Below, piece by piece: positions 59,263 through 61,808 of a stretch of DNA of 64,000 nt. A model generated the notes under the pieces. That model had not been told where the DNA came from. It saw nothing but the letters and a program-made list of their open reading frames with translations, and searched no databases. Each line of letters begins with the position of its first letter. Position 1 is the stretch's first letter. The DNA comes from Treponema sp. (GTDB taxonomy: Bacteria > Spirochaetota > Spirochaetia > Treponematales > Treponemataceae): the NCBI GenBank assembly GCA_016281495.1, contig JAEEIU010000012.1:270507-334506 (forward strand), written 5' to 3'. Both the position numbers and the translations under genes were made by a program.

Positions 59263-59287
59263 CGTCGGCAGCTGTGCATGCTGCCAT
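59263..59287 (+). repeat. 25-bp inverted repeat, left copy (candidate inversion site)
   Basis: CGTCGGCAGCTGTGCATGCTGCCAT, exact reverse complement of 60667-60691. Confidence 0.85.
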
Positions 59288-60143
59288 TGACGCAAACAAG
59301 AGCGGTGGCATCCCCCTTGGCGGATGGACTAGCTTTGAAAACGACACCGCACCCAATGATGATTGGATACAAGCTGGCACAACTTTTGATTCCGATACAT
59401 ACCCGGAGTTATTCCTATATCTTGGTGGCAATACGGTTCCACAGATGTTTGACCATTCAAGACCTGGGGATTATGAAGTTGGAACTATCACAACATCTAA
59501 TACTTCTGTTAATTTTGATTGTTTAATGACTTTTAAGTATAATCCATCATCAGGTTCTGGCTCATATTTTAGTCTTTTTGTTAATGATGTAAATGTAGTG
59601 ACTTTATCATCAGCAAGCGGTGGTCAACAAGGTGCGACTATAAGTTTAAAAAAAGGTGATTTAATAAGATTTACTGGTAGTAACTATGGTGCAATAACTG
59701 TAAATTTTCGTTATTACACCCACCCCATGTTCATCAAGGCAACCACCACGGCATCATCATACACACCGTCATCGGCAGTGCAGGAAATCAAGGATTATAC
59801 CAAGGACTATGTTGACGCAAAAAATTCATATTCCACAGAGGAAACATTGACTGGGGGAACATGGATTGACGGGAAGCCGATTTATCGAAAAACTTTTCAT
59901 TTCAATACAATGCTATCTGTAGGACAATATGTTTATACAGTAGATGTTGGACAAGCTAATTTTGATACATGGATTAAAACATACTACATAGGTAGAAGGT
60001 CAAATATGACAGATATTATGACAGCATATTTTCCTACATGGACAGCAAATAATTATAGTGGATTTAAAATAAGTGTTAATGACCAAGAAGCAATGTTTGT
60101 TGATTATATGATTTTGGAATATACGAAAAAAACAACCCCATAA
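59274..60143 (+). other. Silent, start-less tail-fibre C-terminal cassette
   Basis: Reads NPSAAVHAAIDANKSGG..., in the same frame over the repeat as the fibre on the opposite strand; stop abuts the opposite-strand stop. Confidence 0.65.
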
Positions 60144-61808
60144 CTAGACAGCCTTAATGCAGTAAGTGACTCCAAAACGCTTGCCGTGGGTGGTTGTACC
60201 GTAACGGGGAATACCATTGTTAACAGAAGTTTGAGCTGAAATTATATCTGAATATACGTAACCCGTTGTACTTGATATGCCATTACCAATATATCCGCCA
60301 TAACGCCCAGCACCATCATTACAATAACGGTTATTTGATTGGTGTCTATGTCCCTGAAACTGGTCATCCTTAAACTCTCCTACTGTATATACATCATGGT
60401 CTTGTGTTCCCTGTGTTCCAGTGGCAGGGTCTAGTTCCGTTGAATCAAACACGTATGTCTCGTTCTTTCCTACTCCGACAAGGGAGCATTCACGCAAGTC
60501 TGGCAGTACGTTTGTGTTTCCAAGATAGCTGTAGAGTCCGGGATAATGCGTCTGTAATTCTCTGCTGGTTCCCGTAGTGTCAGTGCCGTCACATTCTAGC
60601 CATTCCAGATTGGGGGCAGGACCAAAGAAGGGGACGATGGCTCCAACTGGCAGACCGCTTGAACCGATGGCAGCATGCACAGCTGCCGACGTCGGAGGAA
60701 GCAGGTTTCCCGCCTCCACCACATCTGTGGTTATGTTCGTCTTTACCGCTGTCCTATCCTTGGCTAACATTAAGAAGTTGTCTTTGGTCGGATCAAGTGT
60801 GTTGACGTTCCCTGTTATGGGAGCCTTAGTTTGGAGCATCTTTTGTATGTGCGTGGACGTAATGGCAGAGTCAGCGGAGAAAAGAAGCTCGTCAACTTTG
60901 GCACTTACCTCCAGCGTATATGCCCCGGATGAAGGGACCTGAACAGCAACGGAACTCCCCGAAGTGCCGTATATCATGACTTCGGAGCGTGAGTTAGCTG
61001 TGTCCTTCTTGATGTCCCATGTGCGCCATGTGTCCTCCTGCGGCGGAGTGTCGGATGGAGATGTATATATGGCTAGCAACGAAGTACACTCTGCAAAGCA
61101 CCTCAAATCCTCACTATAACTTACATATCCATAATCAGCTTCCACAGGTACTGTCCAGTTATGGATTTCCTCGAGGGACGTACAGCCGGAGAACATTCCT
61201 CTTACATCCCTATTTTTTATCATATTAGGTAGAATAATAGACTTAAGAGCAGAACACCCATAAAACAATAAAGGAGAAGACTCTATATTGTTGCACCCAG
61301 TTAGATTCACATATTTAAGATTACTACATCGTATAAAACTGAAGTCAATAACCTGTAAATTTGTTAATCCCGACAAATTTACAGATTCAAGACTCGTACA
61401 TTCTCCTGCCAAGTGTGATATATAGGATAATTGAGTAAGATTGGATAAATCAAGATTTTTAAGAGCAGTACATCTTGGAAAGGGTTGTCTTATACCTGTG
61501 AGACTTATAAAATGAGACATATCTATTGAAACTAAATTTGACGCTCCCATAACAAAATTCCACATAGAATCGTTTATATTTTCTATTACCCGAATAGCAT
61601 CTTCACCCCAATTTATTGATACAAATTTACTTAAATTCTGACATAAAACATAACGTAAAGTCCCGGGAAAAGGATTATCACCACCGCCGAGCAAAAAATC
61701 AATTGTTACTACTGTTATCTCAATCTCGTAGGGAGTGTCCGCTGTGTTCGGATCAAGTTCTTGTAAGAGTGTGTCAAGCTGGTCATAAGTTACGCTATAA
61801 TCCGCCAT
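60144..61808 (-). CDS. Phage tail-fibre-like protein with BspA/TpLRR-like repeats and tail-collar-type C-terminus
   Basis: MADYSVTYDQLD start with RBS aggagg; LRRs (CTALKNLDLSNLTQLSYISHLAGECTSLESVNLSGLTNLQVIDF); SAAVHAAI; terminal HGKRFGVTYCIKAV. Confidence 0.75.
   Translation of the reverse strand: MADYSVTYDQLDTLLQELDPNTADTPYEIEITVVTIDFLLGGGDNPFPGTLRYVLCQNLSKFVSINWGEDAIRVIENINDSMWNFVMGASNLVSIDMSHFISLTGIRQPFPRCTALKNLDLSNLTQLSYISHLAGECTSLESVNLSGLTNLQVIDFSFIRCSNLKYVNLTGCNNIESSPLLFYGCSALKSIILPNMIKNRDVRGMFSGCTSLEEIHNWTVPVEADYGYVSYSEDLRCFAECTSLLAIYTSPSDTPPQEDTWRTWDIKKDTANSRSEVMIYGTSGSSVAVQVPSSGAYTLEVSAKVDELLFSADSAITSTHIQKMLQTKAPITGNVNTLDPTKDNFLMLAKDRTAVKTNITTDVVEAGNLLPPTSAAVHAAIGSSGLPVGAIVPFFGPAPNLEWLECDGTDTTGTSRELQTHYPGLYSYLGNTNVLPDLRECSLVGVGKNETYVFDSTELDPATGTQGTQDHDVYTVGEFKDDQFQGHRHQSNNRYCNDGAGRYGGYIGNGISSTTGYVYSDIISAQTSVNNGIPRYGTTTHGKRFGVTYCIKAV
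60667..60691 (-). repeat. 25-bp inverted repeat, right copy (candidate inversion site)
   Basis: ATGGCAGCATGCACAGCTGCCGACG, reverse complement of 59263-59287. Confidence 0.85.

Follow-up and report, generated by a model that had tools for sequence, protein, structure and literature searches.

Near the right edge of the 64,000-nt stretch of Treponema DNA analysed here (the window), the tip of a prophage tail fibre lies tail to tail with a second, silent tip, and a short inverted repeat bounds the pair. We asked whether this 1.43-kb segment can flip, giving one phage two alternative fibres, and which enzyme would turn it. Judged from sequence comparisons, the segment, which forms the right end of a Mu-like prophage, is very probably an invertible switch with two states. 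Site-specific recombination between two inverted 25-bp sites would flip the segment and fuse the constant fibre shaft in frame to either tip A or tip B. The exchange would take place within a 7-bp core flanked by a variable left arm and a conserved right arm, GCTGCCATCGG, and the change of tip would probably alter receptor specificity.

The fibre segment and its prophage

The fibre gene is encoded on the minus strand, from an ATG at 61808 to a stop at 60144. Its constant part (60667..61808, minus strand) comprises the N-terminus, leucine-rich repeats of the PARCEL type and a conserved stem that ends at the junction with LLPPTSAAVHAAI. The expressed cassette A (60144..60691, minus strand) is a collar-type fibre tip, and the silent cassette B (59262..60143, plus strand) is an alternative tip that lacks its own N-terminus. 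Beyond the fibre gene lies the C-terminal part of a J-like central tail protein (61810..63999, minus strand), which shows 84% identity to phage contig L089 and is cut at 64000 by the contig end. The leucine-rich repeats of the shaft (60667-61808) matched the PARCEL (Liste_lipo_26) repeat model; relatives of the shaft carry PF03382 and differ among themselves in repeat number.

A first-pass annotation, made from the letters of the window, had described most of this layout, and recomputation bore it out. The left copy of the repeat (59263-59287, plus strand) is identical at 25 of 25 positions to the reverse complement of the right copy (60667-60691, minus strand), both copies are read in frame as SAAVHAAI, the stops of cassettes A and B abut at 60143|60144, and the dyad GGCAGC-N7-GCTGCC is present in the repeat. 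The left copy consists of a left arm, CGTCGGCAGC, the 7-bp core TGTGCAT and a right arm, GCTGCCAT. The right copy lies within the fibre gene and is followed by the consensus CGG, whereas TGA follows the right arm of the left copy. The two arms of the repeat are separated by 1379 bp, giving a whole segment of about 1.43 kb. The pair was unique in the 3.2-Mb assembly with up to three mismatches allowed. By chance, 64 kb would be expected to hold about 3e-7 exact 25-bp pairs with their copies no more than 5 kb apart, and the runner-up exact inverted pair in the window measured 14 bp.

Inverting the segment in silico produced an open frame of 666 residues (665 aa counted from the ATG), in which cassette B is fused in frame to the shaft, as the annotation had predicted. 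Relatives of cassette B were found as expressed tips on like shafts in the proteins P0023, P0025, P0017, P0016, P0008 and P0009. These relatives were recovered by a protein search with the inverted fibre as query; cassette B alone, searched against viral contigs, found no relative. The viral and annotated phage collections held few close relatives, and scans for promoters and terminators yielded matches at chance level only.

Contig C20 (334506 bp) ends at the right edge of the window, and the assembly therefore holds no sequence past 64 kb. The right end of the prophage was placed by alignment and blastn at 59160..59262 (no strand; exact end base approximate), where an AT-rich end motif, ATTATAATAAAAACTGATTATTTTTTTT, is found. 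The same motif stands at one end of phage contig L089 and is found again on contig C13 of the window's own genome, G000, where it marks the opposite end of the prophage (G000:C13, about 13368-13400). Leftward of the segment come about 100 bp of AT-rich DNA and then a bacterial GH32 gene. On C13, the AT-rich stretch borders a module encoding a DNA methylase, GemA, a MuB-like ATPase, a MuA-type transposase and a repressor, and head genes, Portal_Mu among them, lie on C50. In phage contig G150 (L089/L106), a single 27-kb record runs from the repressor end through Gp27, terminase, Portal_Mu, capsid, tape measure and J to the fibre switch. The MuA-type transposase and GemA on C13 matched PF09299 and PF06252, the Mu-type portal on C50 matched PF06074, and Gp27 and the portal in G150 matched PF11985 and PF06074. 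Given the end motif shared with C13 and L089 and the gene order in G150, the segment lies at the right end of a transposable, Mu-like Treponema prophage. From gene homology to G150 and the common end motif, we infer that C13, C50 and C20 are parts of one prophage. G150 also encodes a Mu-F-like head protein (L106:6456-7877) with a C-terminal papain-fold domain of the glutamine-deamidase type (PF15644).

Inverted partners and exchanged tips in other phages

In five more phage loci, an expressed tip faces a silent one tail to tail, and short exact inverted repeats mark the fusion points: L089 (24 bp, core CGTGCGG), L091 (21 bp, core CGTGCGG), L093 (21 bp, core CGTGCAA), L177 (19 bp, core TTTGTAC) and L210 (21 bp, core TGTACAC). 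In L177 the fibre is a different one, and the repeat lies within its collar region. The inverted layout is most improbable as an assembly artefact of the metagenome-derived contig: the assembly is indeed fragmented, with the prophage split over three contigs, but all five of these independent assemblies show the layout too, and a repeat of 25 bp is not long enough to cause misassembly at ordinary read lengths.

We aligned the twelve arms from the six loci (the window, L089, L091, L093, L177 and L210). They follow a common plan of a variable left arm, ending in AGC in most cases, a 7-bp core and the conserved right arm, from which only the left copy in the window deviates, in its last three bases. 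The core was always the same within one phage and mostly different among phages (CGTGCGG was seen twice). Such agreement within each phage would follow if recombination required the two partner sites to be alike in the exchanged core. An origin of the cores from tRNA genes was considered and, for all phages but L093, dropped: only the core of L093 fits tRNA-Leu(CAG), and a search for the pattern in the phages' own genomes gave equal numbers of control and real matches. Separately, an unrelated fibre at L199:4589-5379 (IMGVR_UViG_3300031998_000110) has tail-to-tail C-terminal cassettes bounded by an exact 35-bp inverted repeat with the motif VTSNAVA. This fibre is a further candidate for a switch, with a site of another kind, on a contig without a PF00589 match.

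Opposite orientations were observed between the two related phages L091 and L093. Their left flanks (92%) and recombinase flanks (88%) are collinear, and the 371-bp cassette stretch between the flanks, 96.5% identical, lies in opposite orientation; a second stretch of 105 bp is likewise inverted. The silent tip of L091 corresponds to the expressed tip of L093 (95%), and L093 has one further cassette besides.

Fibre proteins in public data with shared shafts and exchanged tips gave a similar picture. P0028 and P0029 have shafts that are 100% identical over 363 aa and tips that are 29% identical. The shafts of P0015 and P0017 are 99% identical over 412 aa and their tips 14%, the former tip being A-type and the latter B-type, which matches the pair of states that inversion would give in the window. 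P0003, P0004 and P0005 carry three different tips on shafts that are 97-98% identical. In the shaft-sharing pairs, identity ends 0-1 residues past AAI, which is the right arm of the site. The natural fibre P0023 could be aligned to the predicted inversion product along all 666 residues (55% identity over 672 columns). Against the switch, the database fibre nearest to that of the window, P0001 (99%), carries tip A, the left copy in the window deviates from the right-arm consensus, and no recombinase was found in the Mu-type phage sequences searched.

These observations bear on an explanation without a dedicated switch, in which cassette B would be a remnant, the repeat conserved stem-coding DNA, and tips would be swapped by homologous recombination. 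The conservation of SAAVHAAI/SEAVRAAI in many fibres is in keeping with it, as are tips held in common by phages with different shafts. We nevertheless consider it improbable. Inverted tail-to-tail partners are found at all six loci; the identity is confined to 19-25 bp and includes wobble positions and the phage-specific core; and L091 and L093 are in opposite orientations. In addition, the frame of cassette B is intact and its relatives are expressed, and shafts that are 99-100% identical break at the site. The inverted partners and the opposite orientations of L091 and L093 favour inversion over homologous tip exchange, although homologous recombination at the conserved stem could have moved tips from phage to phage in some of the shaft/tip protein pairs. 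The invertible tip switch proposed in the first-pass annotation thus gained support from the five other loci, from the opposite orientations and from tip swaps that break at the site.

Candidate enzymes

The annotation had suggested looking for a serine or tyrosine invertase gene beyond 64 kb or elsewhere. A PF00239 profile search of the whole genome detected no serine recombinase, while control genomes were positive. Tyrosine recombinases gave five matches in the genome, none of them on C13, C20 or C50. No tyrosine recombinase was found in G150 or G151, hmmscan, run on most of the ORFs in C13 and G150, revealed no recombinase, and none adjoins the cassettes in the window prophage, L089, L177 or L210. 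The exceptions are L091 and L093: here the cassettes are adjoined by a tyrosine recombinase gene whose stop codon lies within the left arm of the site. The L093 protein (349 aa, PF00589 with PF13102; phrog_1 integrase) is the only tyrosine recombinase on its phage contig. The exchange site itself looks like that of a tyrosine recombinase of the shufflon type. Presumably a tyrosine recombinase performs the inversion, and in the sister phages L091 and L093 the inverting enzyme is probably the one adjoining the site.

On the other side of its recombinase gene, L093 has a 27-bp tRNA-Leu(CAG) fragment, which probably marks an att site. The inversion site and this att region have a 12-bp match, AAGCCGTGCAAG, in common; of 3551 overlapping windows, 11 did equally well, and the link between both sites is suggestive only. 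In G067, an att duplication between the prophage ends was not found.

The tyrosine recombinase of L091 and L093 may serve both as the prophage integrase, acting at tRNA-Leu, and as the inverter, and may also work in trans on Mu-type phages that have the site but no integrase. We hold this dual role to be plausible, if somewhat short of an even chance. The stop codon within the left arm, the lack of any second tyrosine recombinase on the contig, the adjacent tRNA-Leu(CAG) fragment and the presence of AAGCCGTGCAAG in both regions point towards it. So do homologs that, in the glycan clusters of two other genomes, are enclosed by long inverted repeats, and a 73% homolog in G253, the source of L177. 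The core of L091, CGTGCGG, differs from the tRNA-Leu sequence, no close homolog was found in G000 or G209, and four of the six loci are without an adjacent recombinase; all of this counts against a dual role, and adjacency alone could be ordinary prophage layout.

Alternatively, a host tyrosine recombinase (XerC/D, or an orphan on C61 or C21) could invert the sites of several unrelated phages. The right arm is conserved in different phage types, mostly without a recombinase of their own, and G000 encodes XerC/D-like and orphan tyrosine recombinases. Yet the site, judged by eye, does not resemble dif, no orphan recombinase adjoins a site of this kind, and the shared right arms could also be explained by exchanged fibre modules; we regard a host inverter as rather unlikely. 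A wider proposal, which we advance only tentatively, is that the tip switch of the Mu-type phage, without a recombinase of its own, would be served by an outside enzyme, from a co-resident phage integrase or the host, that reads one shared right arm. Phage-specific cores would bar cross-recombination, and the integrase of the sister phages would carry out both integration and tip switching.

Homologs of the phage recombinase were also seen outside fibre loci. In the same genus, L183:8338-9857 (G232:C136) and L182:6725-9526 (G193:C53) encode homologs (41-42%) in nucleotide-sugar/glycan gene clusters, flanked by exact inverted repeats of 25 and 20 bp, respectively; these loci are candidate invertible elements controlling surface glycans. 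The 73% homolog in G253 (L178:2421-4116, G253:C124) lies between exact 25-bp inverted repeats, TGCATATATAGTCATTTTGGGATTT.

Known switches and tip exchange in spirochaete phages

Tip switching by inversion is itself already known, from Mu, P1, Rin and phiCh1. The G segment of phage Mu, with Gin, and the C segment of phage P1, with Cin, are tip switches driven by serine invertases. Both resemble the present segment in having a constant fibre stem, two alternative C-terminal halves in opposite orientation, in-frame fusion and a segment bounded by inverted repeats, and with Mu the likeness extends to the Mu-like phage and the position at its right end. They differ in that here the cassettes abut stop to stop and no serine invertase is found beside the segment or in the genome. 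The site also looks unlike gix and cix. The Mu/P1 logic put forward in the annotation therefore holds for the outcome, a tip switch, but not for the enzyme: the genome has no serine recombinase, and the site looks tyrosine-recombinase-like.

In the Rin shufflon of Bifidobacterium prophages, receptor-binding tips are inverted by a tyrosine-type recombinase; the shufflon comprises several cassettes, its rix sites measure 11 bp, and its XerD-like invertase is a dedicated enzyme distinct from the integrase (PMC6109161). L091 and L093 likewise have a tyrosine-type recombinase beside variable tip cassettes, whereas the present loci have two cassettes, sites of about 19-25 bp and an integrase-like neighbour or none. 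In the haloviruses phiCh1, phiH1 and ChaoS9, the gene for Int1 lies between two fibre genes and is itself part of the invertible region (PMC6471424). The L091/L093 type shares with them a tyrosine recombinase and two opposed fibre genes that trade sequence by inversion, a likeness of layout; the haloviruses differ in being archaeal viruses and in the place of Int1. The sfx sites of R64 Rci have a 12-bp variable left arm, a 7-bp core and a 12-bp conserved right arm (PMC11852207). The present sites resemble them in plan, and in both systems C-terminal adhesin cassettes are joined in frame (PMC11852207, PMC5430464). R64 differs in being a multi-segment system for a plasmid pilus protein, in which the core is conserved from site to site instead of being phage-specific.

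What is new here is a shufflon-type site with phage-specific cores that is common to Mu-type and integrase-bearing phages, the Mu-type phages apparently being without a recombinase. The locus thereby poses the question of the inverting enzyme in phages without one of their own. The defined site, the conserved right arm plus a 7-bp core, can be used to find more switches. What changes, we infer, is host range: the tip swap most likely changes which bacteria are infected. Spirochaete phages join the few that carry a receptor-binding tip which can be switched, and the many natural shaft/tip combinations suggest that such switches feed a common pool of tips.
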